Virus record (IMG/VR): IMGVR_UViG_3300030103_003364
Coordinates: 1-43,514 of that record
Length of the DNA stretch: 43,514 nt
From: a virus
Reading direction: 5' to 3' (one strand)
In this document: piece after piece, positions 1 to 43,514 of the stretch
Layout of the letters: each line of letters starts with the position of its first letter
Position numbering within the stretch: position 1 is the first letter of the stretch
Made by a program: the position numbers and the translations under genes
The notes under the pieces: model-generated
What the model saw: only the letters and a program-made list of their open reading frames with translations
The model's database searches: none
What the model was told of the DNA's origin: nothing

Positions 1-1
1 C

Positions 2-1549: not shown

Positions 1550-1730
1550 AATAGCAATAGGACTAAACATTATTCCTAATTCGCATCCTACGGATGAACA
1601 CCACAGGAAGATGGGTAACAAAAAGAGAATGGCAAGGTCAGAAGCAGACGATAGAATGAGGCAGAGAAGAAAGAAGCATGAAGATAAGAACTCCAGAATG
1701 GGGTCTGGTAATCACGGAATTGATAACTAA
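1539..1730 (+). CDS. Conserved cassette protein B, small basic protein (left allele)
   Basis: The 63-residue protein opens with DRIAIGLNIIPNSHP, shared with its homologue at 42610-42804, followed by a charged Arg/Lys-rich tail that is poorly conserved. A good ribosome site (AAAGGAG) lies inside the end of the preceding gene. The TAA overlaps the ATG of the next gene by one base. The fixed N-terminus and variable basic tail suggest a small binding or adaptor peptide. No family is recognised. Confidence 0.65.
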   Translation: MLDRIAIGLNIIPNSHPTDEHHRKMGNKKRMARSEADDRMRQRRKKHEDKNSRMGSGNHGIDN

Positions 1731-2245: not shown

Positions 2246-2281
2246 TGTATATATTGTAATACAACAATAGGAGACGACATC

Positions 2282-3175: not shown

Positions 3176-3702
3176 TGGCAAAAAAAAGAACAGCAACTCA
3201 GGAAGCTGAAGAAGAAGCAAAGAGAAAAAGACATGGTTGGAATAAAAAGAAGAAAAGAAAAGTATTGAACAAAGAAGAACTCCTGAAAGGTAAAGTTAAA
3301 AAGTTTGACCCAAGAGGTTCTGGTTATGACCAAAAAAACGCACCTCCAAGAAAACCAGCTAATCCTTCTGCTGGGAAGGAAGGAATCCCTCATCAGGATA
3401 CAAGAAATCCAAGAACAGGTCAAATTTTAAAAGGGCAAAAACATCCTACTTTTAGGTTAGGAATGGAGGGTGAAGAAGAGGCAGGTTACACAATCCATAG
3501 AGACGAATTAACTGGTAGGCTTTTTTCAAGAGCAAGAAGGAATCCCTCCGCAGCAGGGAATATGGTGTCCATAAAAGAACTCTTGGAGGAAAATGATAGA
3601 TATAGAAAAACTTTAGAGAGAAAGACAGCAACTCAGGAAGCTGAAGAAGAAGCAAAGAGAAAAAGACAAAAGACTGATTATAATAAAAAGAAGAAAAGGT
3701 AA
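3175..3702 (+). CDS. Lys/Arg-rich protein with duplicated ends
   Basis: The 175-residue protein is extremely basic. Both ends carry the segment ATQEAEEEAKRKR, encoded by a perfect 44-base direct repeat (3190-3233 and 3625-3668), and both are followed by KKKK runs. The C-terminus (TDYNKKKKR) matches a stretch of the large terminase (TDYNKKKMR) through a 24-base identical segment. The middle holds PRGSGYDQKNAPPRKPA and a region with GRLFSRARRNPSAAGN. The ATG overlaps the adaptor gene stop by one base. A DNA-binding virion or packaging-linked role is possible. No family is recognised. Confidence 0.6.
   Translation: MAKKRTATQEAEEEAKRKRHGWNKKKKRKVLNKEELLKGKVKKFDPRGSGYDQKNAPPRKPANPSAGKEGIPHQDTRNPRTGQILKGQKHPTFRLGMEGEEEAGYTIHRDELTGRLFSRARRNPSAAGNMVSIKELLEENDRYRKTLERKTATQEAEEEAKRKRQKTDYNKKKKR
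3190..3233 (+). repeat. 44-base direct repeat, copy 1 (copy 2 at 3625-3668)
   Basis: The same 44 bases occur at the start and end of the Lys-rich gene, in the same reading frame. The repeat is perfect, so it is either a recent duplication or kept identical by recombination. The flanks then diverge, although both continue into A-rich Lys codons. Confidence 0.9.
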
Positions 3703-7307: not shown

Positions 7308-7819
7308 ACAAAGGGTTTAAAGTTTGGGATGATGAAATGCTCACAGATGTAAGTAAGTATCCAGAAGGTGAGAGTTTACCTGATAATTATCTTACAGGTA
7401 AAATTGTTAATAGTAAATTGGTATGGAGGCCAGTAGTTATAGGGGATAATCCTTCTTATGACCCTGATATACAAACAAAAACTTTTGAAAGAGTAATTAA
7501 TGATGACAATGTAACGATTAACTTTTTTGTTGTTGATAAAGATTTAGAAGAAATAAAAGAAAGCAAAAAACAAGAAACTAAAGGGAAAGGTAAAGAAATC
7601 GTATTATTAATAAGAAGTGAGGAGTGTCAAAGAAATGCAGCACTTGGACTTTTATCAGAACAGGAAACAAAAGATATAAAAACTGATATTGAAGCTGTTA
7701 GAAAGTATTATCACGAAGTATTTAAGCCATCACTTAATGCTTGTACTACAGTACATGAAGTAAAAGCATTAACTGTAGATTTCCCACTTTATAAAAAGGA
7801 TATTTATGTTCGGATATAG
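7304..7819 (+). CDS. Tail fibre assembly-like protein
   Basis: The 171-residue protein has a short beta-rich N-terminus (YLTGKIVNSKLVWRPVVIGD) and the sequence NPSYDPDIQTKTFE. This recalls the central motif of phage tail fibre assembly chaperones, in which a YDP-type loop precedes a helical tail. The C-terminal half is helical and charged. It follows the fibre gene, as such chaperones usually do, and overlaps the adhesin-like gene by 14 bases. The assignment rests on one motif and position. Confidence 0.4.
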   Translation: MNKGFKVWDDEMLTDVSKYPEGESLPDNYLTGKIVNSKLVWRPVVIGDNPSYDPDIQTKTFERVINDDNVTINFFVVDKDLEEIKESKKQETKGKGKEIVLLIRSEECQRNAALGLLSEQETKDIKTDIEAVRKYYHEVFKPSLNACTTVHEVKALTVDFPLYKKDIYVRI

Positions 7820-8780
7820 AACGATAGGTTTTGGTGGAAAAGCATCAAGGGGTGGTGGGGGGCCAGGAGATAGAGGTCTTTATGGTGGTGGTGAGGGTGG
7901 TCTAATGATAGATTATATAGCTATATCTACAACAGGTAATGGGACAGATTTTGGAGATGGATTGAGGTATCAGACCGCTGGCGGTGTGTGTAATGGGGGA
8001 AGTGGAGATAGAGGTCTTTTTTCTGGGGGTTCAGACCCCTGGCCTGGGCCGTACTCCTTTAATACTATTGCCGCTGTAACAGTTTCCACGCTGGGAGATG
8101 CCGAAGATACTGGAGACCTAACTGAAGGCAGGAGATTCATGGCTGGTGTTTCAAATGGTTCTGAAGACAGGGGTGTTTATATGGGTGGGTATATACCAGG
8201 GGGTGTCTATGCACGTGATACAATAGATTATGTAACCATATCTACAGCAGGTGATGCGATAGATTTTGGAGATTTACTGGTGGGTCACTTTTCAATGACT
8301 GGTGTTTCAAATGCCTCTGACAGGGGGGTTGCGTGTGGTGGAAGAACACAGGCGGTTAATGGAGTGAATACTCTGCAATATATAACTATATCTACGACAG
8401 GTGATGCGACAGATTTTGGGGATACATCAGTCGACAATATACAAACGAACGGAGGTTGTTCTAACGATACTGGAGATAGGGGAATTTATGGTGGTGGTGA
8501 GGCCACTTTATCCACTGTCTATGTAAATATTATTGAGTATATAACTATATCTACAGCAAGTGATGGGACAGATTTTGGGGATTTACTAGAGGCTCGTTAT
8601 AACCTTAGCAGTTGTTCTAATGGGGCGGCTGATAGGGGAACATTTGCTGGTGGCGCACCTGGGAACATAGATACTATAGATTATGTAACTATATCTTCGG
8701 AAGGTGATGCGGCAGATTTTGGAAACTTGACTAGTGGAAGAACTATGCAAAACACAGGGTTGTCAAATGGGCAGACATAA
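7806..8780 (+). CDS. Kelch-like repeat protein, candidate receptor-binding adhesin
   Basis: The 324-residue protein is made almost wholly of six or seven imperfect repeats of about 50 residues. Each carries DRG-(L/V/I)-(Y/F/A)-x-GG, then an I-(D/E)-Y-(V/I)-x-IST block, then D-(A/G)-x-DFGD. Gly-Gly turns with spaced beta strands fit a beta-propeller or kelch-type adhesin. Similar repeats are known from marine phage structural proteins. Its position next to the tail fibre genes supports a surface-exposed host-recognition role. It starts inside the previous gene and runs to 16 bases before the next. Confidence 0.6.
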   Translation: MFGYRTIGFGGKASRGGGGPGDRGLYGGGEGGLMIDYIAISTTGNGTDFGDGLRYQTAGGVCNGGSGDRGLFSGGSDPWPGPYSFNTIAAVTVSTLGDAEDTGDLTEGRRFMAGVSNGSEDRGVYMGGYIPGGVYARDTIDYVTISTAGDAIDFGDLLVGHFSMTGVSNASDRGVACGGRTQAVNGVNTLQYITISTTGDATDFGDTSVDNIQTNGGCSNDTGDRGIYGGGEATLSTVYVNIIEYITISTASDGTDFGDLLEARYNLSSCSNGAADRGTFAGGAPGNIDTIDYVTISSEGDAADFGNLTSGRTMQNTGLSNGQT

Positions 8781-12845: not shown

Positions 12846-15800
12846 ATGATATTGTCCATTCAGGAACTAGCAAGGAATCACAACTTTGATCTAGATGCAG
12901 CTAGAAAAGAAATGTCTGATGATGACATTGTTGCTTACCTAAATGAAAAGGAAACTAAAGGTTCTGCTATACAACCAGCTGCACCTGAAGCCACAGCTAC
13001 GCCTGTACTTACCGAAGCAACTGCTGCACCTCAAGTAGACATGGCAGACTTAGCTCGTAGAACAAGATTTGATTTAGAAGCAGCTAGGGAAGGTGGAATG
13101 TCTGATGAGAGAATACTCTCCTATATGAAAACACTCCGTGCTGATGAACCTGAACCTGAAGTAGAGGAACAAGAGCAAGACCTAACTTCGAGAATGCTCT
13201 CCTATATAAAAACACTCCATGGAAGATTTTCTGCTGATGATGATGAACCTGAAGTAGAGAAACAAGAGCAAGACCTACCTGATGATGATGAACCTGAAGT
13301 AGAGGAACAAGAGCAAGACCTACCTTCAGTTGATTTTACTACACCTAAAGGATTTGCTACTGCAGTTCTTGATGCTGGAAAGAATGTTTTTAGGTTAGGG
13401 ATAGGTCTTGGTGAGTTTATAATTGAAACAGGGGGTGGTCTTTATACTGGAGTTGTAAGTGAGGTAGCCCCTGAAACTGCGGAGAAGCACTTTCATGTAG
13501 ATGGTGGTGATTTCTTAAAAGCTATGGGTCAGTTCATAGAACAGTCAAGACTGGTATGGGAGAAAGCAGATGAACACCTTGAGTTTTTAGACCCAGAAAC
13601 TGAAGAAGGGGTGAGGGCGTTAGAGAAGGTTGAAAAAGTAATTGAATTTGCAATAGTAAAACCTGCAAAGTTTCTAACTAAGTTAGTAGTAGACCCTGAG
13701 AAATTCCCTCATAAAGCACAAGCTCTAGAGAATATATTTGGTGCTATAATACCAGTAGGATATAAGAAATTATATAATAATTCAAAAGCTATACGCAGAA
13801 GGATTAAGCGGAGAAGGGCAGAGTTTAAACAGAAGCAGGAAATAGTTGAGAAGATATTAGACCAACCAGAGTGGGATAAGGTAAATAAATCAAAGGGAGA
13901 CATTACTCCTGAGTTAAGAGAAGAGTTTAATAAAAAAGTAGAGGAAATAAAAAACGAGATTGAAAATAAGGTTAAGGTAGAGGAAGAGAGAAGTGAGATA
14001 AATGAAATATTTGAAGAGGCAGAGAAAGCAGAAGCGGTTGCTGAAAAACCTTTGCCTAAGAAAGCTGACGAGTTAACGGAAGTTAAAGAGTTAGAGAAGA
14101 TAATAAAGAATAGAGTAAAAGAATTAGAGATACAGCAGACTGCTAAACAAAAGAAGGAGTCAGTAGCTAAAGAGGCAGAACGATTAACTGATGCAGAGAA
14201 AGCAGAAGCGTTTGCTGAAGAACCTTTGCCTGGTGAACAACCTACTACAATAAGAGAGCAGAAAGCTAAAGAGTTAGAGAAGATAATAGAGAAGACTGAA
14301 AGAAGTAAGTTAGATGCTGAGTTTAAACGACTACAAAAGAAACTACAGGAAGGTACTCTAATTCCTGAAGACTTTGCTGAAGCAGCTAAAGCTGTACCTA
14401 CTAAGAAGCCTAAGTCTAAAGTAGAAGAGGAAGCACCTTCTATTGAAGAAGCTAAGACAGGTAGTGTTACTGAGCTAAGTGTAGGAGATAGTTACCTGCC
14501 AGCTAATCACCGTGCTCCATGGAGAATTGTTAAGAAGTTAGAGGATGGTGTAATAGCTAAGAGAGGAGATAAGTATAAGAAGTTTAGTGATGGTAAGAAG
14601 TCTAAGAATGTAAGCGCTGAAGAGATAGCGAAGATAGAAAAGGAAGGCGTATCAGATGTGGTACGTGATGAACCTGTCTTTAGTGCTGAAAAAGGAACAT
14701 TGGTTGATAACTTAGATATAGGTCGGAAGGAGAGAGCTTTAATAGAAAAGTATAAAATTACTAAACCTAAAGGTAAGATTGAACCGCCTACTGAAGTATC
14801 CACTACTGCCCTTGGCAAACTCACTGATGAACAAATCAGTAATGCTACTGTAGCTGAACTTGAGAAACTAAGTTACGCTACAAAGGTGAAGGGTGATGGT
14901 GTTACTAAGAAGAGAGTTAAAGAGATAAGATTAATTGCTCAGATAGAGAAGGATAGCAGGGCGTTAAAAAGGGGCTCAGCTAGATATGATTCTACCACTG
15001 GACAGAAGAAACCACTGGAGTCAACTAAAGAAGCAGTCTTTAGTGCTGAAGAAGGAGCATTGGTTTCTAACTTAGAGGTAGGTCAGTCATACTTACCTGC
15101 TGATTACTTCTTACCTGATGATTACTCACATACTTGGAAGGTTGTTAAGGTATTAGAAGATTCTGTAATAGCTAAGAAAGAAGATATGTATAGGAAGTTT
15201 AGTGATAGTAAGGTGACTAAGAATGCAAGCGCTGAAGAGATAGCGAAGATAAAAAAGGAAGTACCACATCTGGTACGTGATGAACCTGTCTTTAGTGCTG
15301 AAGAAGGAATATTGGTTTCTGACTTAGAGGTAGGTCAGTCATACTTACCTGCTGATTACTTATATACTTGGAAGGTTGTTAAGGTATTAGAAGATTCTGT
15401 TATAGCTAAGCGAGGAGATAAGTATAGGAAGTTTAGTGATAGTAAGGTGACTAAGAATGTAAGTGAAGCCGAGCTGTTAGAGGTTCTTTTAGAAAAGGAA
15501 GGCGTACAAGTAGATTATAATGTGGATGTGGTACGTAATAAACCTGTAGGTGAGATTGAACCTACTACTAAACCTAATATTGTTAATACCAAAAACTTAG
15601 AGGTAGGTGATTCTTACTTACCGCCTAATCATGTGTTACCTTGGAAGGTAGTCAAGGTAATGAAAGACTCTTTCATTGTTGTGAGAGGTAATAAGACTAA
15701 GCAGTTTAAACATCAGAAGCATAAGAAGTTAAGTGAAGAGCAGCAGAGAAGAGAAGATATAGACCTTGCTTACCAGAGGAGAGGCGAGAAGAGAGTAGGT

Positions 15801-18800
15801 GTTAAAGAAATATTCAGCGCCTCTAATATAACTAATCTGTTTACGAAATTCAGGAGAGATAAGGGTGCTATACAAGGTATCGCTGGTATCTTTGGGCTGA
15901 AGAATTTTGATGTAATAAGAAGGGCAGGTACTTTAGCTAAGAGGATAGCAGGTGGTAAGGTAAAGAAGTTTAAAGATGGAGCGGTAGTAGGAGAGCAACA
16001 TCTCTTTGGTATATATAATAGGTTAGAGCCTCACATACAGGCAGAGAAGACTGCATTAATCAAGAGATTTCTTGCTGATAGAATAGGATTAAAAGATGTA
16101 CCTCTGGAAGATATAGCAGTACAGGATTTGAACCTCTCTAAAGAGAGCAGGACTGAGTTAATTAAAAAGACTAAAGAACAACGTGCTATAAATAAGGAGC
16201 AGAACAGGACAGAGGAACAGAGGGAGAGAGCTTTAATAAGAGAGTCTAAGAGAGAGCTTGCCTTAGAGGAAGAAGCTGCAATAGATGCTGCTGAAGCAAG
16301 TCCTACCTTTGATATACCCCAAAAACCTCTACTGAAAATGGAAAGGATTATTACGCCAGAACAAACTGAAGCAATAGGTAAGATTATGGAGTCTGCATTA
16401 AGGGTAGCTGCTGCTAAGAGAACCAACTATTTACATCAGGCACGGAAGTTAGGTCTGTTAGAGAAGAACAAGATAGACCCAAGTAACTTAGAAGACTACT
16501 CAATAGCTGATGGTTTCTCTGATAAACAGATATCAGAGTTTCGTAGGCTTGATGACTTAAAGAAGTTAGGTAAGGCTAAAGGTTTAACTGAAGCAGATAT
16601 AACAGACATTAATAAAGTAATTGACAAGACAATTAAATCAGAGTTGCCAGATACCTTACTTAAAATACAGGTAGAGGACTTCATAAGAGAAGGGTTAAAA
16701 TCTGGTGAGTTGACACAGTTAGATGTTATAAAAGGTAAGTCTTCTATTAAGCATAAGGCTAAACCTATAGAGCTAACACCTGCTGAATTAGATGCTATTC
16801 CTACTGGAACTGAATACTTCTCTATTAAGTTTAATGAAGTAGTAACACTAACTGGTAAGTTCCCTAACAGATGGGAGGTACGTACTAAGTCAGGAAGAAA
16901 TCTTAATATATCTTTGAATGAAGCGTTGTCTGATGTAGGAGTAGGAAGCGACCTATTCTCACAGAGGGTAATTAAGCAATCTACATTTGATAAGGCTGTT
17001 AAGAGTATCAATGATGCTGGTAGAAGGACAAATGTAAACTTGATGACTGTCAATCCTAAGTTAGCTAAAGACTTAGCTATCATAGGAGCATATCATATAG
17101 AGAGTGGGGTTAAAAGGTTTAGTAAGTGGAAGGATGTTATGGTAGAAGAGCTTGGAACTGCTATTAGTAAGGTAGAGTTAAAGAAGATATGGAAAGAGTC
17201 TAAGAAGATGGTACGGCAGGTGGGTGCTAAGATGTTTAACCTTGTGAAAGAACGTGCCGTTAATATTAGTAAGGCTCAACTACAGAGCGATAAGTTTATT
17301 GTTAGGGAAGTTGAAAATAAACTGAAGAAGCTTAAGGAGAGAGAAGCTATACCATTTCTTATTCAGGGTATTAAAGATCCTAATGTGTTGAAGAAGATAG
17401 GGCGTGGTGATTTAATAGACTTAGTTAATAAGCCAACTAAAACAATGAAAGAGGTATCTGATAAGGTCAGTAAGTATTATGATGAAGCCTTTGCTTTCTT
17501 GAGGAGGGAGTGGGGAGAGGTTAAATTTAGAGAGAACTATGTAACACAGGTGTGGGATATACCTAAGCATAAAGTAAGGTCTACTGTTAGTTCATTCCAG
17601 ACACACAATCCTTTTACAAAGAAGAGAACTATACCTACATTAGAAGAAGGTATAAAGCTAGGGTTGACTCCTAAAACATTAGACATAGCTAAACTGCTTA
17701 GGATATATGACTCTGCTAAGATAAACTCTGCCTTTAACTTTAAGTTTGCTAAGGAACTATCAGAGTTGACAGGCACAGATGGTAACAAACTTATAATGAG
17801 AAGAGACAAAGCTCCTCAAGATTGGATAACATCAGACCATCCTGCATTACGGAGAGCTATGGCTATCAGTAAGACTAAGGATGGCAAGCCAGTTCTTATA
17901 ATGTCTGATGCAAAGTATCATCCTATGATAGCTACTGAGATGGATTTAGTATTTGGAGAGGGGTATAGCTTATTTGTTAAAGGAGTAGATGTTATAGGTG
18001 TGTATGAAGGTATTAATGCAATAGCTAAGAAGGGTCAGTTGTCATTGTCATTGTTCCATCATTTAGCATTAACTGAAGCTGCATTCTCAAGTGGTATAGG
18101 TATCAAGGCTATGAAGTTATGGAATCCGTTCAAGGTGTACAGAGCAGTAAAGAATAAAAACTTTGAGATATTTGATAGGATGGAGCTGGCTACTGATGCA
18201 ATAGAACATAGAGTTACATTTTCAGCATTAGAAGAAGTTAAGCAGGCTCTTATTCAGAGAGCATTAGAGACTGCTGAATTTAAAACAAGGAACGTGCGAG
18301 TCGTAGGCAAGACTGTTAAAGGAACAAGGATTGCTAATGAGTTGTGGGATAGAGCGTTGTGGGATTACTACCATAACACATTAAAGCTGTATGCTTATGA
18401 GGCTAATGTAGCACAGGCATTAGGTAAGGCACGTAAGATTAAAATGAAGAAGAAAGGAAAGGAACTAACTGAAGCAGAGGTAGAAGCTATTAAGAATGCT
18501 ATGGGTGACTTTGTTAATGACAGTTTTGGTGGACAGAATTGGCAGTTACAAAAGGTATTAGGTCAAAAGAAGATAAACCAGATGCTTCATTGGGCTTTTC
18601 TATCTCCTGATTGGACTATCTCTGTACTAAAACAGACTGCTGCACCAGTAACGGCAGTAGTTAAACTTGCTAAAGCTAAGAATATGGCAGAGGTAATGGC
18701 AGCTAAAGCATTAGCTAAACGTAGCGCAGCGTTCTGGATTAAAGCAGGAATATACTTTAACATAATTGCACAGGCTGTAAACTATCGCAACACGGAGAAA

Positions 18801-19592
18801 GCGTTTGGCGAGGGTAAGTTTACGTGGCAGAATGACCCTGGACATGAGTTTAATATGTTCTGGAAAGTGGGTGAGGATGATAATAAGGAATATTTAAGGT
18901 GGGGTAAGCAGTTTAGAGAGGTAGGGGAGGGAATGTTAGACCCTATCAAGAAATTTGGCTCTAAGTTAAGTCCTTTAGTAAGAGAATCTATAATTCAATT
19001 AACAGGTATGTCGCCAGGTGGAAGCTTCCCTGCTTCATTTGCTGATATACCTTTTTGGGAATCACTACCTAAAAGGTTAGGACATTTTGCTATACTACCA
19101 GTTCCTTTCTCATTAAGGTCACACATAAGTAATTCACCTAAGAACTTTATGTTTTCATTACCTACATCTAAGGGTATGACACCATATAAAACAAGGAAAC
19201 TATTTAGGGAAGCATTGACTTCATTCATAGATAAACATGAGACAGATAATATAGATGCTGTAGGTGTAGCGGATAAGGCAAGGCGAAGGCTATTCAGGAT
19301 ATATATATCAGCATTAGAGAATAGTTTAGATGCAGAAGAATTGTTTAAGTCAGCAGAGACCTCTGTTAAGTCTAAGATGTCTCTTAACGATAGGTCTGTA
19401 GCAAGGGAAATATATAAAGAGGTATCAAATCTCTCAACAAAGAAGGAGAAGAGAGACTTACTTGCTGCTTATAAGATGAAAGGTGTACTTACAATAAGAA
19501 TAATGAATAAACTTAAGGATGAAGCAAGACGTCAAGCTAATATAAAAAGACAACAAAGACAAGCTAATATTACAATTAACAAGAACAAGTAA
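12846..19592 (+). CDS. Giant 2248-residue virion/ejection protein
   Basis: Very large proteins at the end of the tail block are typically packaged and ejected with the DNA. N-terminally, a motif LAR-x4-FDL-x-AAR, then MSD and YL/YM, occurs twice (residues about 8-35 and 66-95). An acidic repeat DDEPEVEEQEQDLP follows, then long charged coiled coils. Four copies of a small beta-like unit (VGxSYLP, W(K/R)(V/I)VK, KFSD) lie at about 545-960. The C-terminal 800 residues resemble polyvalent phage proteins and contain hydrophobic stretches near 1735-1760 and 1940-1980. I recognise no lysozyme, protease or polymerase signature. Confidence 0.7.
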   Translation: MILSIQELARNHNFDLDAARKEMSDDDIVAYLNEKETKGSAIQPAAPEATATPVLTEATAAPQVDMADLARRTRFDLEAAREGGMSDERILSYMKTLRADEPEPEVEEQEQDLTSRMLSYIKTLHGRFSADDDEPEVEKQEQDLPDDDEPEVEEQEQDLPSVDFTTPKGFATAVLDAGKNVFRLGIGLGEFIIETGGGLYTGVVSEVAPETAEKHFHVDGGDFLKAMGQFIEQSRLVWEKADEHLEFLDPETEEGVRALEKVEKVIEFAIVKPAKFLTKLVVDPEKFPHKAQALENIFGAIIPVGYKKLYNNSKAIRRRIKRRRAEFKQKQEIVEKILDQPEWDKVNKSKGDITPELREEFNKKVEEIKNEIENKVKVEEERSEINEIFEEAEKAEAVAEKPLPKKADELTEVKELEKIIKNRVKELEIQQTAKQKKESVAKEAERLTDAEKAEAFAEEPLPGEQPTTIREQKAKELEKIIEKTERSKLDAEFKRLQKKLQEGTLIPEDFAEAAKAVPTKKPKSKVEEEAPSIEEAKTGSVTELSVGDSYLPANHRAPWRIVKKLEDGVIAKRGDKYKKFSDGKKSKNVSAEEIAKIEKEGVSDVVRDEPVFSAEKGTLVDNLDIGRKERALIEKYKITKPKGKIEPPTEVSTTALGKLTDEQISNATVAELEKLSYATKVKGDGVTKKRVKEIRLIAQIEKDSRALKRGSARYDSTTGQKKPLESTKEAVFSAEEGALVSNLEVGQSYLPADYFLPDDYSHTWKVVKVLEDSVIAKKEDMYRKFSDSKVTKNASAEEIAKIKKEVPHLVRDEPVFSAEEGILVSDLEVGQSYLPADYLYTWKVVKVLEDSVIAKRGDKYRKFSDSKVTKNVSEAELLEVLLEKEGVQVDYNVDVVRNKPVGEIEPTTKPNIVNTKNLEVGDSYLPPNHVLPWKVVKVMKDSFIVVRGNKTKQFKHQKHKKLSEEQQRREDIDLAYQRRGEKRVGVKEIFSASNITNLFTKFRRDKGAIQGIAGIFGLKNFDVIRRAGTLAKRIAGGKVKKFKDGAVVGEQHLFGIYNRLEPHIQAEKTALIKRFLADRIGLKDVPLEDIAVQDLNLSKESRTELIKKTKEQRAINKEQNRTEEQRERALIRESKRELALEEEAAIDAAEASPTFDIPQKPLLKMERIITPEQTEAIGKIMESALRVAAAKRTNYLHQARKLGLLEKNKIDPSNLEDYSIADGFSDKQISEFRRLDDLKKLGKAKGLTEADITDINKVIDKTIKSELPDTLLKIQVEDFIREGLKSGELTQLDVIKGKSSIKHKAKPIELTPAELDAIPTGTEYFSIKFNEVVTLTGKFPNRWEVRTKSGRNLNISLNEALSDVGVGSDLFSQRVIKQSTFDKAVKSINDAGRRTNVNLMTVNPKLAKDLAIIGAYHIESGVKRFSKWKDVMVEELGTAISKVELKKIWKESKKMVRQVGAKMFNLVKERAVNISKAQLQSDKFIVREVENKLKKLKEREAIPFLIQGIKDPNVLKKIGRGDLIDLVNKPTKTMKEVSDKVSKYYDEAFAFLRREWGEVKFRENYVTQVWDIPKHKVRSTVSSFQTHNPFTKKRTIPTLEEGIKLGLTPKTLDIAKLLRIYDSAKINSAFNFKFAKELSELTGTDGNKLIMRRDKAPQDWITSDHPALRRAMAISKTKDGKPVLIMSDAKYHPMIATEMDLVFGEGYSLFVKGVDVIGVYEGINAIAKKGQLSLSLFHHLALTEAAFSSGIGIKAMKLWNPFKVYRAVKNKNFEIFDRMELATDAIEHRVTFSALEEVKQALIQRALETAEFKTRNVRVVGKTVKGTRIANELWDRALWDYYHNTLKLYAYEANVAQALGKARKIKMKKKGKELTEAEVEAIKNAMGDFVNDSFGGQNWQLQKVLGQKKINQMLHWAFLSPDWTISVLKQTAAPVTAVVKLAKAKNMAEVMAAKALAKRSAAFWIKAGIYFNIIAQAVNYRNTEKAFGEGKFTWQNDPGHEFNMFWKVGEDDNKEYLRWGKQFREVGEGMLDPIKKFGSKLSPLVRESIIQLTGMSPGGSFPASFADIPFWESLPKRLGHFAILPVPFSLRSHISNSPKNFMFSLPTSKGMTPYKTRKLFREALTSFIDKHETDNIDAVGVADKARRRLFRIYISALENSLDAEELFKSAETSVKSKMSLNDRSVAREIYKEVSNLSTKKEKRDLLAAYKMKGVLTIRIMNKLKDEARRQANIKRQQRQANITINKNK
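14470..15770 (+). repeat. Fourfold repeat region inside the giant gene
   Basis: Related blocks start near 14480, 15077, 15329 and 15600. Each encodes VG(D/Q)SYLP followed by a Trp-containing strand and KFSD or KQFK. Between copies 1, 2 and 3 a second motif recurs (RDEPVFSAEEG, or SKEAVFSAEEG). Copies 2 and 3 are the most alike at DNA level, so they are the youngest pair. Confidence 0.8.
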
Positions 19593-31060: not shown

Positions 31061-31963
31061 ATGACATTCGCTGAAATGAAAAAAGAAGATTACAATAAAG
31101 AAAGAAAAGTAAAGGATAGAAAAAAGAAAGCACAAGCAAGAGAATTACATTATTATGCTAATGACCATGATTTTCCAAAAGAAAATAATGAAATTCCAAA
31201 AGGATATGAAAATAAAATAATCTGTGGAGATTCAGAAGAAGTTTTAAAAAAATTGCCGAATAATTGTGTAGACTTGGTTTTTACTTCTCCACCATACAAT
31301 TTTGGGTTAGCTTATGAAAATTATGATGATGGTGTTCATTGGGAGAAATATATTGAAAAATTATTTGCTGTTTTCAAAGAATGTATAAGGGTTTTAAAAT
31401 ATGGGGGGAGAATTGTAATAAATGTTCAGCCTCTTTATTCTGATTATATCCCAATTCATCACATGATTACAAACTTCTTTATCCAGAATAAGATGATTTG
31501 GAGAAATGAAATAATATGGGAAAAAAATAATTATAATTGTAAATATACTGCTTGGGGTAGTTGGAAAAGTCCATCTAAACCTTACTTAAAATATACTTGG
31601 GAGTTTTTAGAAGTTTTTTCTAAAGGAGATTTAAAACATCTTGGAGATAGTAAAAATGCAGATATTACTGCTGATGAATTTAAAGAATGGGTTCTTGCTA
31701 AATGGAGTATTGCTCCAGAGAGAAAAATGAAAGATTTTGGTCATCCTGCAATGTTCCCAGAAAAATTAGCAGATAGAATCTTAAAACTTTTTAGTTTTAA
31801 AGGAGACATTATATTAGACCCTTTTAATGGTGTTGGAACAACTACGAAGGTTGCAAAAGAAACTGGTAGAAGATATTTAGGAATTGATACTTCAAAAGAA
31901 TATTGCGAGAAATCCGAAGAAAGGTTAAAGAAGTGGATTGACATATCAAAAAAGGTATGCTAA
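31061..31963 (+). CDS. DNA methyltransferase (N6-adenine or N4-cytosine), class beta order
   Basis: The 300-residue protein carries catalytic motif IV TSPPYN (about 75-80) before the SAM-binding motif I LDPFNGVGTT (about 252-261), the beta-class order. HPAMFPEKLADRI precedes motif I. It methylates the exocyclic amino group of A or C in DNA; specificity cannot be read. The gene is richer in A than its neighbours, a sign of recent acquisition. No clear partner restriction enzyme is adjacent, so it may protect phage DNA from host restriction. Confidence 0.88.
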   Translation: MTFAEMKKEDYNKERKVKDRKKKAQARELHYYANDHDFPKENNEIPKGYENKIICGDSEEVLKKLPNNCVDLVFTSPPYNFGLAYENYDDGVHWEKYIEKLFAVFKECIRVLKYGGRIVINVQPLYSDYIPIHHMITNFFIQNKMIWRNEIIWEKNNYNCKYTAWGSWKSPSKPYLKYTWEFLEVFSKGDLKHLGDSKNADITADEFKEWVLAKWSIAPERKMKDFGHPAMFPEKLADRILKLFSFKGDIILDPFNGVGTTTKVAKETGRRYLGIDTSKEYCEKSEERLKKWIDISKKVC

Positions 31964-32841: not shown

Positions 32842-32863
32842 AAAGGATATGAGATGGTGAAGA

Positions 32864-32959
32864 ATGTTCCTTCGTAATGTGATTTTATTATATGTCTTGG
32901 TTCTTTTATCTTTTGTAATTTTATTTATAATTGGTCTAGGGATAATTAAATGGCTATAA
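32864..32959 (+). CDS. 31-residue membrane peptide
   Basis: The peptide is a single hydrophobic helix (VILLYVLVLLSFVILFIIGL) with a short charged N-terminus. It directly follows the endolysin-type gene. The ribosome site is weak. It may belong to the lysis set as a small holin-like or regulator peptide. Confidence 0.4.
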   Translation: MFLRNVILLYVLVLLSFVILFIIGLGIIKWL

Positions 32960-33040
32960 ATAAAAGTATGGCTGCTATTTATGGACTGAACAACCTATAG
33001 ACTCTGATGGCACATCAAAATAGAAAAGGGAGGAGAAAAC

Positions 33041-34042: not shown

Positions 34043-35656
34043 GTGGACATTAAATCTCTTGACATTAAAAAATTAAAGAAACTTCCAAGAGCAGAACGAT
34101 TAGCCCTTGCAGACAAGATTGATGAGTGGGAAAAGAATGTTCTTGGTGCTAAGTCAGACTTCCTGAAAAACCAAAATCCTTTCATATACTTTGAACCTTC
34201 TGATGGAACTGTATCTCCAGAGGGTATGGAGTTCCTTAGAAAGCACATCAACGAAGAGGATATACCTCCAAAGTTTGAATCTCAATTAGATGCTATTAAA
34301 GCATTAGCTGACAATAGTGTTATTGCTATCTTAGGTGCTAACCAGGCAGGTAAGACTCTTATTATTTGTATAATTGGGTATATCCTTTCTACTGGAGAAG
34401 TACCTGAGTTTTTAAAAGACATCTTTCCAAAAGAATTACTCCCTACTAAGTTTCCGGTTAAAGGTCGTGTGGTGGGTGTTGATAACAGGCAGTTGCTAAA
34501 TGCTGTTTTAAGGGAGTGGAAGAAGTTTGCTCCGAAGAACTGTTTAAGGAATGGTAACTGGAAGGATAGTTGGAACTCAGAGCGTAAGACATTGACACTC
34601 TACCGGAATAATAACTTTGTATTAGCTGAAGTAGAGTTTATGACTAATGAACAAGATGTGGATTCTTTTCAGGGGGTGCAGTTGCATTGGGTAGCTTATG
34701 ATGAAGAACCTAAAGAGAAGATTAGACAAGAAAACCTAATGCGTTTTATTACATCAGATAGAATTATAGAATTATTTGGTTTCACTCCGACTCATGGTTT
34801 GTCTTGGAGTTCGGAACTGTTCTTTAATAACGAAGATAATGATAATGTTAAGTTAATAAAGTTAGCTTCTATCACAAATAAGAAGGCTAACATAAAGATG
34901 TTGGAGGAAATAGCAACTCAGGAGACTGATTATAATAAAAAGAAGATGAGATTGCTTGGTGATTTTGTTTCACTATCCGGTCTTGTCTATTCAAACTTGT
35001 TTAGCGAGAAGGTTCATGTAGTAAAACCTTTTGACTTGAACATGGAAGAGTTTGTTGTTTATCGTGGGCTTGACCCACACATGACTAAACCAACTGTTGC
35101 TGTGGAGGTGGCAGTAGATAGGGAGGGTTTTAAGTATGTTGTCGGAACATATAAATCTAAACACGGAGACGACACAGAAATCATCAAAGAGAACTTGGCG
35201 AAACGAGCAGCTGACAGGAATTACAGGCTTGGGTGGACAAATTGTGACAAGTCTGCTGATAGCACTATACGCATCATTGGTGATTATAATGCTTTTGTGC
35301 TTTTGGGTAGGGGAGCTAATGCTATCCCTGCGCTCTTTAAGTCTGAAAAGTTTACTGGGTCTAAAATAGCAGGAGTAGATTTGATTAGACAAAACCTAAG
35401 AGTTGATGATAAAATTAACTTGCCAAAGTTAGTTATATTTGATATACCAGAAAACAAAGAACTTATACACTCCATGAAAACATTAGAACGAGATACGTTT
35501 GCAAATGAAGACATTAAAGTAAAAGACGATATTAAAGAAGGCAAACATGATGCTCATGCTGCGTTGCGTTATGCACATCAGAGAATAATGAACTGGATGC
35601 CTTTAAATCAAATAATACCAGAACCGGAAGAGGTTAATGAGACTGTAGGATATTAA
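34043..35656 (+). CDS. terL: Terminase large subunit
   Basis: The 537-residue packaging motor has an N-terminal ATPase with Walker A GANQAGKT (98-105) and Walker B WVAYDEE (216-222). The C-terminal RNase H-like nuclease domain starts near YRGLDPH (D344). It drives DNA into the prohead and cuts genome ends. The start is GTG, directly after the preceding stop. ATQETDYNKKKMR (about 291-303) is the segment whose DNA matches the end of the Lys-rich gene at 3175. Confidence 0.9.
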   Translation: MDIKSLDIKKLKKLPRAERLALADKIDEWEKNVLGAKSDFLKNQNPFIYFEPSDGTVSPEGMEFLRKHINEEDIPPKFESQLDAIKALADNSVIAILGANQAGKTLIICIIGYILSTGEVPEFLKDIFPKELLPTKFPVKGRVVGVDNRQLLNAVLREWKKFAPKNCLRNGNWKDSWNSERKTLTLYRNNNFVLAEVEFMTNEQDVDSFQGVQLHWVAYDEEPKEKIRQENLMRFITSDRIIELFGFTPTHGLSWSSELFFNNEDNDNVKLIKLASITNKKANIKMLEEIATQETDYNKKKMRLLGDFVSLSGLVYSNLFSEKVHVVKPFDLNMEEFVVYRGLDPHMTKPTVAVEVAVDREGFKYVVGTYKSKHGDDTEIIKENLAKRAADRNYRLGWTNCDKSADSTIRIIGDYNAFVLLGRGANAIPALFKSEKFTGSKIAGVDLIRQNLRVDDKINLPKLVIFDIPENKELIHSMKTLERDTFANEDIKVKDDIKEGKHDAHAALRYAHQRIMNWMPLNQIIPEPEEVNETVGY

Positions 35657-38825: not shown

Positions 38826-39788
38826 ATGGCTAACGAAATGAATTGGGTCAATCACTCCGGTGTATTGACTAACAATAAGTTGAATCAGTTTTTTCAGCGT
38901 TCAGCCCAACCTCTTTTCAAGTTTAGACAGTTCGTAGATGTTAAGGAAGCATTTGGAAAGTCCAGAGGTCAGTCAGTCAACTGGCTGAGAGTTGCTAATG
39001 TTGGTACTATGGGTGGAAACTTAACCGAAACCAACACCATGCACGAAACGACTCAGGCTTTAACATGGGGTACGCTTACGGTAGCTGAAGTAGGTAACTC
39101 TATTCCATTTACCTTTAAAGCAGAAGCATTATCTGAATTTGATATACAAGAAATTGTTAGAGGTGGAATGCTTGATGATGCTGCAAAAGTATTAGACGGT
39201 AAAGTTGAGAGAAGGTATAATGAAACGAAGTTACGCTTTGTCGGAACTTCCACTACCGCCCACACTCTTACTACTAACGGTACTGCTACTGTTACTAACA
39301 CTTCAATCTTAAATTCTCGCCATGTAAGAAAGATGAGACTTGAGTTGGAGAAGAGAAATGTTCCAGCATACGAAGGTGACTCTTATGTATGTATTGCTTC
39401 ATTGGAAGCCTTAGAGTCTCTTGAAGGAGCTATGGAAGGCGTAAATCAGTACACCGAAACTGGTGTTGATAAGATTTACAACGGTGAGGTTGGGAGGCTT
39501 CATGGTGTAAGGTTCGTTAAGGATTTCTACGCTTCACGGTTTACGATTGATGCTGATGCAAGAACTGCTACAGCTAAATCATGGACTACAGGCAACTCAC
39601 TTGATGCCTATATGTTTGGAAAAGGTGTCGTAAGAGAAGCCGTTGTTGTACCAGAGGAAGTTCGTATGAAGGTTGTTACTGATTACGGAAGGTCTAAAGG
39701 TATCGCATGGTATTTCTTAGGTGGATGGGCGTTAGAATGGGACACTGAGGCTGATTCAAGAATCATTAAGTGGGATTCTAATGCGTAG
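38826..39788 (+). CDS. Major capsid protein, N4-gp56 type
   Basis: The 320-residue protein has the HK97-like N4-gp56 layout: FKFRQFVDVKEAFGKSRGQ early, WGTLTVAEVGNSIPFT, then ARRYNE-type helical stretch, NVPAYEGDSYVCIASLEAL, and YNGEVGRLHGVRFVKDF. These C-terminal phrases are characteristic of the family. It follows the scaffold-like gene with a good site (AGGAG). It forms the icosahedral shell. Confidence 0.82.
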   Translation: MANEMNWVNHSGVLTNNKLNQFFQRSAQPLFKFRQFVDVKEAFGKSRGQSVNWLRVANVGTMGGNLTETNTMHETTQALTWGTLTVAEVGNSIPFTFKAEALSEFDIQEIVRGGMLDDAAKVLDGKVERRYNETKLRFVGTSTTAHTLTTNGTATVTNTSILNSRHVRKMRLELEKRNVPAYEGDSYVCIASLEALESLEGAMEGVNQYTETGVDKIYNGEVGRLHGVRFVKDFYASRFTIDADARTATAKSWTTGNSLDAYMFGKGVVREAVVVPEEVRMKVVTDYGRSKGIAWYFLGGWALEWDTEADSRIIKWDSNA

Positions 39789-39830: not shown

Positions 39831-40214
39831 ATGGCTTATGATGATATGGTTGTTATTACTTACTCTTGGGGCGAAATAGATTTTGGTGCTGGCAGTGATG
39901 CTGTTGCTATCAAAGGATATGGAGGCAAGAAGGGTAAAATCCTAGACATTGGCGTGTCTGTAACCGAAACTTTTAATCAGGTTACGACCCCTGCGTATAT
40001 ACGAATGGGTACAACAGGAGACGCTGATGCTTATGCAGAGCTTAATATGGCTGCTGCTGCTGATACAGATTATTATAATATCCTTGACGACACAGACGCT
40101 ATTATAGCTGCTGCTGTTCCTGCGGATACTCAGATAGAGGTTGCTTTTATTACCCCTACTGGTGGTACTCCTGCTGGTAAAGGACACGTTAATATAACTA
40201 TCGGTTGGTTCTAA
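39831..40214 (+). CDS. Putative capsid decoration or head protein
   Basis: The 127-residue, beta-rich, Gly/Thr/Ala-rich protein (ITYSWGEIDFGAGSDAV, and GKGHVNITIGWF at the end) has a strong AAGGAGGTGA site. Small beta-sandwich proteins after the major capsid gene are often capsid decorations. It is the last gene before a terminator. No family can be named. Confidence 0.5.
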   Translation: MAYDDMVVITYSWGEIDFGAGSDAVAIKGYGGKKGKILDIGVSVTETFNQVTTPAYIRMGTTGDADAYAELNMAAAADTDYYNILDDTDAIIAAAVPADTQIEVAFITPTGGTPAGKGHVNITIGWF

Positions 40215-40220
40215 ATTTGT

Positions 40221-40270
40221 GGGGCTGGCTGTACGACATCTTGAATGGGATGCAGTCCAGCCCTTTCTTT
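40221..40270 (+). terminator. Rho-independent terminator after the head operon
   Basis: GGGCTGG-CTG (40222-40231) pairs with CAG-T-CCAGCCC (40253-40263), with one bulged T, and an inner CATC/GATG extends the stem. TTTCTTT follows. It separates head genes from the sulfotransferase cassette, so the cassette may have its own control or be made at lower level. Confidence 0.7.
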
Positions 40271-40278
40271 AAGGCTTA

Positions 40279-40911
40279 ATGAAACTTGTAATTGTAAATT
40301 CACATGAGCGTAGTGGTACTCATTTCTTAATGAATACGATTGCTCTCAACTTTGGATATTGTAGCTTTCCTTATTACAATATGGATATGCCTGTACTGCC
40401 GCACATACCTAATAATATGTTAGCGGTGCTACAACAGATACAAGAACCAAGACATATAATAAAATCACATTATGAAGGAACATTCTTCAGACCAATTATA
40501 AATAAAATTACAAAACACGCTCATGTGTTTTACATCTACAGAGAAGAAGAAGGTGTATTTAAAAGTTGTCTGAAGCATTGGAATAGTCTAACCTGGGAAG
40601 AAGCTGCCAGATGTGAAACTGTTGATGAGCTTAAAGTAGCACAACCTTATGGTGGTTGTATGCGTTATCAGTTCAGGCAGTATCCTTCCATGTTAGCAAG
40701 ATGGCAAGGACATAAAGCAAGCTGGAAAGAGAAGATGGGTGGCGCTGATATAATCTATGTAAGGTATGATGATTTATCGCACCGTTTTGATAAGACACTT
40801 ATGATAATATCTAAACGAATGGGTATTCCGATAATAGGTGGTATTGCTCGTAAACCAGATAAGAGTAAGACAGTACGGGATGGAGAATTTAATGAAAAAG
40901 AGGTCACTTGA
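40279..40911 (+). CDS. Sulfotransferase family protein (complete copy)
   Basis: The 210-residue protein opens with NSHERSGTHFLMNTI, the 5'-phosphosulfate-binding loop (about 7-21). HIIKSHYEGT (about 59-68) follows, then YIYREEEGVFKSCLKHW (about 85-101), which fits the 3'-phosphate-binding helix with Arg and Ser. The family moves sulfate from PAPS to a hydroxyl of a sugar, lipid or protein; the acceptor here is unknown. It overlaps the GT9 gene by four bases. No strong ribosome site is seen. The C-terminal third is matched by the cut copy at 2-235. Confidence 0.82.
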   Translation: MKLVIVNSHERSGTHFLMNTIALNFGYCSFPYYNMDMPVLPHIPNNMLAVLQQIQEPRHIIKSHYEGTFFRPIINKITKHAHVFYIYREEEGVFKSCLKHWNSLTWEEAARCETVDELKVAQPYGGCMRYQFRQYPSMLARWQGHKASWKEKMGGADIIYVRYDDLSHRFDKTLMIISKRMGIPIIGGIARKPDKSKTVRDGEFNEKEVT

Positions 40912-41897
40912 AAAAGCCGAAAGCCTTATTGATACGGTACGGAGCATTTGGGGATACGATTATGCTTACTCCTTTATTACGGAAATTGAAGGAGGAGGGA
41001 TACCATGTGACAATGAACATGACTCCGAGAGCAAAAGCTGTATTGAACCACAATCCTCACATAGACCAATACATAATGCAAAAGGAGAATCAGATACCTA
41101 ATGAACAACTTGGGAGTTACTGGAAGAATCTGTCTGAAGGTTACGATAAAGTTATTAATCTGTCTGGTTCAGTTGAAGGTGGTTTGCTTAAAGTTGAAGG
41201 AAAACCTGCTTTTCGTTGGGAGCATGAAGTAAGACATGAGAAATGCAATAGGAACTATTATGACGAGCAATTCAAAAAAGCAGGATATGATACAACAGGC
41301 AAGGTGGGAGAACTTTTTTTTACACGACTTGAGCATCAACTTGCTAAGACATACATTAAGAAATATAGAAAAAGATTTACGGTCATGTGGTCACTTGCAG
41401 GAAGCTCGTTCCACAAAAACTATCCCTATACACAAATAGTTTGTGATTGGTTATGCAAACTTTATGATGATATAGTATTTATTTTAGTTGGTGATGCTGT
41501 TAGTGTTATGTTAGAATGGGAGCATCCACAGGTAAAATGCAGGTCAGATAAATGGTCAATTCGTCAGGCTATGTTGATGACAAAATATGTTGATTTAGTA
41601 GTTGGCTCAGAGACAGGGATATTAAATGCGGCAGGGTGCTATGACACGCCAAAGATTGTCCTCTTGTCTCATTCGTCTGAGGAGAATCTCACGAAATACT
41701 GGAAGAACTGTACCAACTTACACGCATCTCAGGATGAAGTACCCTGTTATCCTTGTCATCAGTTGCACTATACTTTGGAGTCTTGCCCTTTACATGAGAA
41801 ATTAAAGACACCTTTATGTATGACACAACTTAAATATGAAGTTGTTAAGAACGAAATAGAACGACAATATAAGGAATGGAAAAATGGGTGTAGGTGA
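40908..41897 (+). CDS. Glycosyltransferase family 9 (heptosyltransferase-like), right allele
   Basis: The 329-residue protein has the same GT9 layout as its left-end partner: RYGAFGDTIMLTPLLRKLK near the N-terminus and DLVVGSETGILNAAG in the donor-binding half. The TTG start overlaps the sulfotransferase stop. An 85-base stretch (41632-41716) is identical to 959-1043 although flanking parts differ, suggesting recombination or selection at this segment. The C-terminal Cys set (PCYPCHQLHY and later Cys) is fully conserved between alleles. Confidence 0.82.
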   Translation: MKKPKALLIRYGAFGDTIMLTPLLRKLKEEGYHVTMNMTPRAKAVLNHNPHIDQYIMQKENQIPNEQLGSYWKNLSEGYDKVINLSGSVEGGLLKVEGKPAFRWEHEVRHEKCNRNYYDEQFKKAGYDTTGKVGELFFTRLEHQLAKTYIKKYRKRFTVMWSLAGSSFHKNYPYTQIVCDWLCKLYDDIVFILVGDAVSVMLEWEHPQVKCRSDKWSIRQAMLMTKYVDLVVGSETGILNAAGCYDTPKIVLLSHSSEENLTKYWKNCTNLHASQDEVPCYPCHQLHYTLESCPLHEKLKTPLCMTQLKYEVVKNEIERQYKEWKNGCR

Positions 41898-41985
41898 CGC
41901 AGAGGTATGGTTAAAAGATGACACGAATACTCCTTTTGGAGTGGAGCGTGATGGCAATAGGATTGTAGTTAAAGATGACTACTGA
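41884..41985 (+). CDS. 33-residue ORF, possible partial copy of cassette protein A
   Basis: The ATG lies inside the end of GT9, exactly where cassette protein A starts in the left copy. Its residues (KDDTNTPFGVERDG) recall the N-terminus of protein A (KDNGTRSPMGILSV). A full protein A gene follows at 42246, so this may be a leftover N-terminus split off when the extra gene entered. Confidence 0.35.
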   Translation: MGVGDAEVWLKDDTNTPFGVERDGNRIVVKDDY

Positions 41986-42268
41986 ATGGAAATGTATTAA
42001 GTGTGGTCAATGTTGTATTGGCGCTAATGTTACTGTAAACTTGGAAGCAGAAGCAGCAAGGTTCTATAGTTACTTTGGTATAGAGATAAGTAAAGTAAAT
42101 GATGAGTATAAAGGCAAATTTCAAACAGGAACAGTTTGTAAGTTCTGTAGGAATAAGATGTGCGAAATATATGAGAACAGACCACAGATATGTAAAGACT
42201 ACCCTATAGTAGAGAAGGATGGGAAGAAACAATGTTGGGGGGTAAATGATGGCACATATAGAAAGTGA
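41975..42268 (+). CDS. YkgJ-type cysteine-cluster protein
   Basis: The 97-residue protein matches the CxxCxxxCC family: CIKCGQCC near the N-terminus, CKFCRNKMCEIYENRP and ICKDYP later, with a final Cys. These proteins are predicted to bind zinc or an iron-sulfur cluster; some relatives modify proteins. It is present only in the right copy of the locus, between GT9 and protein A, overlapping both neighbours. Its partner role could be to activate or modify the cassette product, but this is inference. Confidence 0.75.
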   Translation: MTTEWKCIKCGQCCIGANVTVNLEAEAARFYSYFGIEISKVNDEYKGKFQTGTVCKFCRNKMCEIYENRPQICKDYPIVEKDGKKQCWGVNDGTYRK

Positions 42269-42620
42269 TAGTAGAGTAGAAAGTGGAATGGATTTTAAAG
42301 TTGATGGAGGTGAGATAACTCCATTGGGAATGATGTCTGTTCAGGCTGAAGCGATTATGAAGCGCAAGCAAGATAAGCCTCACTCAGTAGGTGTTTTTAC
42401 TGATGGCGCTAAAGGAGATAGTGGTGAGTTAGAAGGTATGCCAACTCCAGAAGAGTTTACTGAGTCTGATTTTAATGTTGCATTAAGATTCCCTTCTGCT
42501 ATAAGAACTATGTGGAGTGATGACGTAGCCATAGAAGTTATGGAGGCGCTGTTATTACATAAACCTTTTGAATTGCTAAACCAGAAACTACAACGGAAAG
42601 GAGAACAAGATGCCAGATAG
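42246..42620 (+). CDS. Conserved cassette protein A, unknown function (right allele)
   Basis: The 124-residue homologue of 1208-1549 has an extra N-terminal stretch (MAHIESDSRVESG) before the shared part. The middle and C-terminal motifs are the same as in the left copy. A G-rich site (GGGGGG) lies just before ATGATG. It overlaps the YkgJ-type gene and the next gene. Confidence 0.68.
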   Translation: MMAHIESDSRVESGMDFKVDGGEITPLGMMSVQAEAIMKRKQDKPHSVGVFTDGAKGDSGELEGMPTPEEFTESDFNVALRFPSAIRTMWSDDVAIEVMEALLLHKPFELLNQKLQRKGEQDAR

Positions 42621-42804
42621 AATAGCAATAGGACTGAATATTATACCAAATTCTCACCCTTCAGATGAACACCACGACAAGGTGAGAAAAGCAAAAAGGA
42701 AGAGAGATGCCGATAAAAGAGAGAGGATGCAGTTTGCAAGAAAGGGTAGAAACGGAGAAGATAAAATGAGAGACACACGGAACACTCCGATAGCACAAGG
42801 CTAA
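42610..42804 (+). CDS. Conserved cassette protein B (right allele)
   Basis: The 64-residue homologue of 1539-1730 is identical over DRIAIGLNIIPNSHP, then has a diverged basic tail (KAKRKRDADKRERMQFARKG). The gene has an AAAGGAG site and overlaps its neighbours in the same way as the left copy. Confidence 0.63.
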   Translation: MPDRIAIGLNIIPNSHPSDEHHDKVRKAKRKRDADKRERMQFARKGRNGEDKMRDTRNTPIAQG

Positions 42805-43328
42805 TGTTTCACTACCAGTTTTCATATTATAAACGGAACAATAGAGGAGAGATAAGTATGGGGTATTGGGTCGGCTTTACTGCCAAGAATGGCAAAGAAT
42901 GTAATTTCTATGTAGAAGATGATAGAGGAAAACGAAGATTCTATAATGGGAAAGACAAAAAAAATGAGTATAGAAGCGAAGAGCCATACGACACCTTAGA
43001 AGATAATACTCCAAAAGTTATAGAACGAAAAATAATACCAGATGCTTCAGAGCCAATACAAAGCACACATAACAGACCAGTATTAGAGCAGGAAGTAAAA
43101 GAAGCAAATGCTGAAAGATTTGTTGCATTAAAAACAGATTTAGGGCAGCAAGCAAAAGCATTATTGTCTGAGGGTAGGTTAAATCATACCACCTTTACAA
43201 AACTAATATCTAACAAAGCATCTTTAACTGACAAGAAACTTAGTAAGCCAAAGTATGATGCTATCATAAAGGAGTTAATAGATAACGAAATAGCAGAGAA
43301 AAAAGGCTTGAATTATATTTATAAATAG
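42804..43328 (+). CDS. Conserved cassette protein C (right allele)
   Basis: The 174-residue homologue of 1730-2245 shares a conserved first third (MGYWVGFTAKNG, NFYVEDD, FYNGKDKK, EYRSEEPYD), has a variable linker, and a similar helical end (KKGLNYIYK). Stronger conservation of the N-terminal third suggests that this part makes the key contact. Confidence 0.67.
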   Translation: MFHYQFSYYKRNNRGEISMGYWVGFTAKNGKECNFYVEDDRGKRRFYNGKDKKNEYRSEEPYDTLEDNTPKVIERKIIPDASEPIQSTHNRPVLEQEVKEANAERFVALKTDLGQQAKALLSEGRLNHTTFTKLISNKASLTDKKLSKPKYDAIIKELIDNEIAEKKGLNYIYK

Positions 43329-43369
43329 TGTATGTAGTAACTTAATATACAACATCAGGAGACGACAAC

Positions 43370-43514
43370 ATGGCTGCTCCAACAGCTCCGACACTTGCGA
43401 TTATTACAACTGAAGGTATAAAGAAGGCTGGCTACGGTAACGCTGCATCTTCACTTTTAACTCGTTCACAAGACGAGTGGATAGAAGAGATAAAGAATGA
43501 TATATGGACTTTAT
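43370..43514 (+). CDS. Head-tail adaptor-like protein, N-terminal part, cut by window edge
   Basis: The first 48 codons match those of the gene at 2282-3175, with only a few silent or near-silent changes and complete identity over the last 79 bases. The window ends inside the gene, so it is a cut copy, not a broken gene. GGAGACGACAAC precedes the ATG, as in the other copy. Confidence 0.75.
   Translation, partial: MAAPTAPTLAIITTEGIKKAGYGNAASSLLTRSQDEWIEEIKNDIWTL

Follow-up and report, generated by a model that had tools for sequence, protein, structure and literature searches.

Sulfotransferase and GT9 glycosyltransferase genes beside the capsid gene of an uncultured phage: a candidate virion-glycosylation island

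What would a phage modify with a sulfotransferase and a glycosyltransferase that are encoded side by side among its head genes? The question is raised by positions 40279-41897 of IMG/VR record IMGVR_UViG_3300030103_003364, the full 43,514 nucleotides of which are referred to here as the window. An earlier note on this DNA had read the two genes as a pair of enzymes working as one system, either on virion proteins or on the host surface. The phage is presumably marine, going by the IMG sample numbers, and its close relatives are all metagenomic contigs.

Two predicted enzymes among the late genes

The sulfotransferase (ST) gene (40279-40911, + strand) encodes 210 aa and exceeds the Pfam cut-off for Sulfotransfer_1 (E 3.5e-5; 23.8 bits, cut-off 22). 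The closest PDB fold to its AlphaFold model (pLDDT 87.9) in Foldseek is SULT1D1 with PAPS (E 8.9e-8, probability 1.00), and a profile built from aligned relatives finds solved cytosolic sulfotransferases at E 4e-9. The phosphosulfate loop (K/R-S-G-T) is present as R11-S12-G13-T14 and in all full-length members of the A3 alignment, the one truncated sequence of which is without its N-terminus and hence without the loop. R88 and S96, eight residues apart, are invariant in 12/12 aligned sequences, phage and cellular, as is K62-S63-H64 in all 12; by comparison with SULT motifs, these are taken to be the 3'-phosphate pair and the K-x-H catalytic segment. Judged by its motifs, ST has a complete PAPS site, and its dN/dS of about 0.07-0.14, a rough value as dS is saturated, points to purifying selection. 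The earlier designation as a PAPS-type enzyme is borne out by the Pfam score, the PAPS-site motifs and the predicted fold. Searching 50,697 phage records with ST by tblastn gave 0 matches.

Pieces of the ST gene are also seen in the lysis region, where an insert at 32858-32962, 3' of the M15 endolysin gene, holds two of them antisense and in swapped order (reverse complement of 40430-40489, then of 40489-40515; 95-100% identity). The insert is present in L016 and missing from L021 and L025; it yields a 31-aa hydrophobic ORF (MFLRNVILLYVLVLLSFVILFIIGLGIIKWL) and looks like either a templated-insertion scar that creates a small membrane-type ORF or an antisense RNA to ST.

The GT9 gene (40908-41897, + strand, TTG start) encodes 329 aa and scores 18 bits against Pfam PF01075, below the cut-off of 22, which its relatives in L027, L060 and L071 exceed; the sole NCBIfam match is a weak one to heptosyltransferase I. 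A profile from aligned relatives reaches 3TOV, a GT9 (E 3.5e-5), and 3TOV is also the top PDB match in Foldseek (E 5.5e-15) to the AlphaFold model (pLDDT 95.2), with WaaF (7.4e-12), WaaC and TibC further along a series that extends to about 2e-7. The model predicts a GT-B heptosyltransferase fold. The N-lobe Gly-Asp motif (G15-D16) is kept in 22/22 aligned sequences and T236 of the C-lobe (D/E)TG donor-side motif in 22/23, while the C-lobe also holds a four-cysteine knuckle, with C280 and C283 in 23/23 and C293 and C304 in 22/22. With a dN/dS of 0.07-0.11, GT9 is likewise under purifying selection. These motifs and the 3TOV/WaaF-like predicted fold agree with the earlier description of a heptosyltransferase-like GT9, and the doubt raised with it, that neither protein might have a PAPS or nucleotide-sugar site, is answered by motifs and folds found in both. 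No match to GT9 was returned by tblastn of phage records.

As claimed earlier, the ST stop and GT9 start overlap by four bases (40908-40911), and the same XTGA overlap is seen in L021, L025, L035 and L036 and in both alleles of the window. Since it persists with three different GT9 start codons (ATG, GTG or TTG), the sequences suggest that translational coupling of ST and GT9 has been selected.

Upstream on the same strand lie the major capsid protein gene (38826-39788; PHROG 1357 major head protein, E 2.8e-21) and, directly 3' of it, a 127-aa gene (39831-40214) with no family match in Pfam or PHROGs, which from its position is a putative decoration protein and a candidate acceptor; an ORF of 110-200 aa, recognized by size and position only, is found immediately 3' of the capsid gene in 53/66 loci. 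The capsid and decoration genes are separated from the glycan genes by a GC-rich hairpin (40221-40264, + strand; MFE -22.9 kcal/mol, z -2.46), a possible attenuator that was not called by a simple terminator scan and that may reduce enzyme expression relative to capsid. Hairpins of -15 kcal/mol or below stand at the matching place in 28/66 loci, formed by unrelated sequences, with z from -0.7 to -5.4 in the nine relatives tested.

Downstream of the pair, where three unknown genes had been counted, there are four small ones on the + strand: a 97-aa CxxCxxCC metal-binding-type protein (41975-42268; PF03692, E 4.7e-10), present in one allele only and missing from the start allele, L012 and L015, and three genes conserved in relatives, of 124 aa (42246-42620), 64 aa (42610-42804) and 174 aa (42804-43328), the last strongly divergent between alleles. 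Genes similar to the CxxCxxCC gene recur in the islands of L023, L025 and L035. The island is closed by a 297-aa gene at a conserved position (2282-3175, + strand), a putative head-tail adaptor labelled by position only and with no PHROGs match; the earlier placement of the pair between capsid and adaptor genes holds for the position but finds no PHROGs support for the adaptor label. Elsewhere in the window, a 2248-aa ORF (12846-19592) has internal repeats of about 85% identity at 14527-15708, and repeated segments are found in a 324-aa ORF (7806-8780); both ORFs are without a PHROGs match and are possible repeat-built virion proteins.

The first 2.4 kb of the window (1-2426) aligns with its last 2.8 kb (40674-43514). 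The two are almost identical at either edge and 72-81% identical in between, and the end copy has the CxxCxxCC gene in addition. The start copy, on the + strand, holds the 3' end of a second ST allele (1-235; 94% aa identity to ST residues 133-209), a second GT9 allele of 328 aa, again with the four-base overlap (232-1218; 81% aa identity and dN/dS 0.11 against the first allele), and, from the end-copy alignment, second-allele 124-, 64- and 174-aa genes (1208-2245; 1208-1549, 1539-1730 and 1730-2245). The end copy runs on into the putative adaptor gene, of which the contig end leaves 48 codons (43370-43514, + strand; 98% identity to the first 48 codons of the ORF starting at 2282). The end allele is single-copy in L004 and the start allele single-copy in L012, both running from capsid to the next structural genes; the ends are therefore best read as alleles of one locus, and the idea that a single genome carries the system twice was rejected. 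On the simplest reading, we infer that the map is circular or circularly permuted, is about 40.7 kb long and has been opened within a stretch that varies between strains; the assembler presumably followed both branches of a strain bubble and so left two alleles at the contig ends. A 43,504-base record behind L021, in which a second GT9 piece is absent at the other end, is neutral on the circular map. The two diverged alleles matter for gene counts and copy number of the record. An exact 24-base direct repeat (3671-3694 and 34923-34946) is common to a 175-aa gene and a 537-aa gene (putative terminase).

A conserved GT9 in a variable glycan island

The earlier note had proposed searching related phage genomes for the pair and its gene position, and both are conserved: ST is found at 97-100% identity in twelve near relatives, and ST (59-72%) and GT9 (68-80%) occur together in L025, L021/L022, L035, L036 and L037. 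To keep GT9 out of the selection, loci were also gathered by capsid profile alone, with capsid identity down to about 40%. Of the newly fetched loci that extend 5 kb or more past the capsid gene, 34/35 have GT9 no more than 5 kb 3' of that gene, a count that includes some near-duplicate contigs, so that the effective number is somewhat lower, and that rests on a capsid profile built from GT9-bearing loci, more distant capsids being outside the sample. In these loci GT9 is on the same strand at a median of 2.2 kb from the capsid gene. Among relatives, ST is confined to the window's subclade and L047, and distant relatives keep GT9 with ST missing. By this distribution, GT9 appears to be the conserved core and the ancient member of the pair, and ST a lineage-specific addition. 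The same figures led to rejection of the idea that what is conserved is an operon of ST and GT9 on their own; the pair proposed earlier as a system survives as a combination conserved with its position, not as a two-gene unit, ST being an add-on in a larger island.

The recurring order is capsid, small decoration-like gene, glycan genes and adaptor-like gene, and the gap between capsid and adaptor appears from its gene content to be a variable glycan island with mostly glycan-enzyme accessory genes. Across relatives it holds GT4, GT8, methyltransferases, Maf/DUF115-like proteins, radical SAM proteins, nucleotide-sugar enzymes and a GmhA-like isomerase. In L025, L021 and L037, additional glycan genes occupying as much as 4 kb separate capsid from ST; they comprise two GT4-type transferases and a Gfo/Idh/MocA oxidoreductase, with a methyltransferase in L021 and L037. 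L036, L023 and L047 encode an MptE-like protein of the Maf/DUF115 type together with a radical SAM/SPASM protein, and the ST of L023 is of a second, different kind to which the ST profile gives no match. The L024 island has a NeuD-like acetyltransferase, those of L088 and L058 a nucleotide-sugar dehydratase and a dehydrogenase, and L094, another record of the same type as L093, a GmhA-like isomerase between two GT9s. This phosphoheptose isomerase (L094, 10380-10991) scores 165 bits against NCBIfam gmhA, for which the cut-off is 209. GT9 itself is fused to methyltransferase and GT8 domains in L061 and L070 and is doubled in L027, L060, L091, L093 and L095.

A lack of any current role, with the pair carried as a passenger AMG or surviving as a decaying remnant, would be in keeping with the rarity of ST and with the sub-lineage L005-L009, in which an HNH endonuclease and a 10-bp insertion disrupt the GT9 motif, yet it is very improbable given dN/dS well under 1, intact catalytic motifs and the presence of GT9 in nearly every capsid-selected locus. 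In that sub-lineage the HNH-type endonuclease ORF lies between ST and GT9 (e.g. L006, 3483-4060), and the insertion (TGAATTATGC), identical in 5/5, splits the FGD catalytic motif between G and D and brings in an in-frame stop, the GT9 ORF outside it being 96-99% identical. A broken gene, an internal restart, a +1 frameshift or bypass, or a homing-site footprint could each account for it.

Candidate targets of the pair

The nearest non-phage STs have 36-42% identity to the phage ST. Such cellular STs are few: a scan of 84,980 species genomes gave four good matches, and a phylum sample of 395 genomes gave 1, the already known one, and no further ones. The ST of L075 is flanked by a TpsB transporter and a TPS exoprotein and is accompanied by two TPR-GT41 enzymes and one more ST, and that of L077 is beside two TPR-GT41 enzymes and further STs. 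L074 is a single 1002-aa chain of TPR, GT9-like region, methyltransferase and ST, the GT9-like part of which has weak matches to PF01075 (22.1 bits, cut-off 22) and, in a search of that one sequence, to the A4 profile (E 1.2e-5). GT41 being a family of protein glycosyltransferases, this company kept by cellular STs indicates protein-linked glycans.

The acceptor could be a non-virion protein of host or phage, such as a flagellin or an adhesin. Flagellin and adhesins are the usual targets of Maf/DUF115 and GT41 systems, and a cellular ST relative (L075) is housed in an adhesin locus; for Maf systems, flagellin is also the normal substrate in the literature (PMC11339370). Even so, this reading is improbable, as a lytic-stage gene of a head operon has little reason to target host adhesins and host adhesin or flagellin genes were not found in the phage islands.

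The reading favoured here, at a probability of roughly 0.55, is that the pair is part of a late virion-linked protein-glycosylation island and that a virion protein of the late operon is modified. GT9 would glycosylate Ser/Thr residues on a virion protein, perhaps with heptose or a related ADP-sugar, and candidate acceptors are the capsid, the putative decoration protein of 127 aa and a head fibre; ST would then move sulfate from host PAPS onto the glycan or the protein. Heptose is a reasonable first guess, from the GmhA-like gene in L094. Swaps of accessory enzymes between lineages would alter the surface glycan of the particle, and such swapping is as expected if there is diversifying pressure on surface charge or recognition. 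The virion-modification idea of the earlier note is partly supported in this way, by position and by enzyme company.

Several observations count for and against a virion target. TibC, a protein heptosyltransferase, is among the GT9 fold matches and the four C-lobe cysteines are kept, which counts in favour; Cys clusters also occur outside protein glycosyltransferases. On the other side, 3TOV is followed among the best fold matches by two LPS enzymes, WaaF and WaaC, the N-terminal beta-barrel of TibC is missing from the GT9 model, the late operon position would also suit a late host-surface enzyme, and no annotated glycan gene is found beside a head gene in those cultured phages whose portals are distant relatives (21-27% identity).

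Several of these points suit an unlikely though still substantial alternative, in which host LPS, capsule or another glycolipid is modified late, for example to prevent progeny from binding to debris or to block superinfection. The GT9 family includes LPS heptosyltransferases, as the high WaaF and WaaC fold matches and the heptosyltransferase I match recall, and NDP-sugar dehydrogenase, dehydratase and GmhA-like genes are present in related islands. Against a glycolipid target, no O-antigen flippase, polymerase, undecaprenyl-phosphate transferase or membrane acyltransferase was found among the island proteins scanned, GT9 is fixed beside capsid genes over deep divergence and is not mobile like a moron, and the cellular ST relatives are accompanied by GT41 protein glycosyltransferases. 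Modification of a virion protein is preferred because the LPS affinities of the GT9 fold are outweighed by its fixed position beside capsid and decoration genes, taken together with the glycan island and the protein-glycosylating neighbours of cellular STs.

Phage DNA bases are a further conceivable substrate, through hypermodification with sugar and sulfate, and nucleotide modification by glycosyl- and sulfotransferases has been mentioned as a phage precedent (PMC10829341). The chance of this is slight: the pair lies among head genes, away from the replication genes, and no base hydroxylase, hydroxymethylase or base kinase is present in the ten replication- and lysis-side window ORFs scanned, where an N6/N4 methylase is the only DNA-modifying gene; with no supporting genes in these ORFs the candidate was rejected. 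The N6/N4 DNA methylase (31061-31963; PF01555, E 1.5e-45) lies directly before the lysis genes.

If a virion protein is the target, a broader and more tentative proposal, held at somewhat short of even odds, is that a locus dedicated to capsid-linked glycosylation, built of a core GT9 fixed 3' of the capsid gene and of swappable accessories, is shared by a widespread clade of uncultured phages, and that sulfated virion glycoproteins occur in the window lineage. We know of no earlier case of sulfated phage particles. The capsid-adjacent position, the partner enzyme and the clade-wide island lead to the testable idea of charged sugars on particles, and, if true, variable islands would be a route to altered particle surface chemistry and adsorption at sea.

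Comparison with known systems

Mycobacteriophages, among them Che8, Corndog and Myrna, are described as encoding the enzymes that glycosylate their capsid and tail tube (Freeman 2023, as cited in PMC12363180 and PMC12619734). The likeness lies in phage-encoded glycosyltransferases, which here are proposed to act on virion proteins; the present locus differs in its GT9 family, its place directly 3' of capsid/decoration genes, its variable island and its ST. Virion glycosylation being known already in mycobacteriophages, the new parts are the capsid-linked GT9 island and the coupled ST, and literature searches on phage capsid glycosylation with a sulfotransferase or heptosyltransferase turned up no equivalent. 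If the proposal is true, virion glycosylation extends far past mycobacteriophages.

Among GT9 enzymes, WaaF and WaaC have fold and family in common with the phage protein at about 13% identity, the phage gene lying in an island and theirs in an LPS locus. TibC and other bacterial autotransporter heptosyltransferases are alike in GT-B fold, catalytic Asp near the N-lobe and four C-lobe cysteines; the iron ligands of TibC are Cys339, 342, 358 and 370, and its D110A variant is catalytically inactive (PMC4358343). The cysteine spacing is x2-x9-x10 in the phage GT9 as opposed to x2-x15-x11 in TibC, and in place of the TibC barrel the phage model begins with a Rossmann strand at residue 5. Assignment of GT9 to the TibC/BAHT group was ruled out, the defining beta-barrel being missing and no autotransporter substrate gene being found beside GT9 in the window or the islands.

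The cellular STs of L075, L077 and L074 resemble the phage ST in having protein-glycosylation neighbours, but their loci are chromosomal adhesin or other loci, with GT41 or a fused GT9-like domain where the phage has a separate GT9. Sulfotransferases of the PAPS superfamily, to which the window ST belongs, are also found in phages as AMGs, for example in OM43 phage genomes, where they resemble that of Synechococcus phage S-SRM01 and their role has been called unclear (PMC10580990); virion sulfation, if true, would give phage sulfotransferases a first function.
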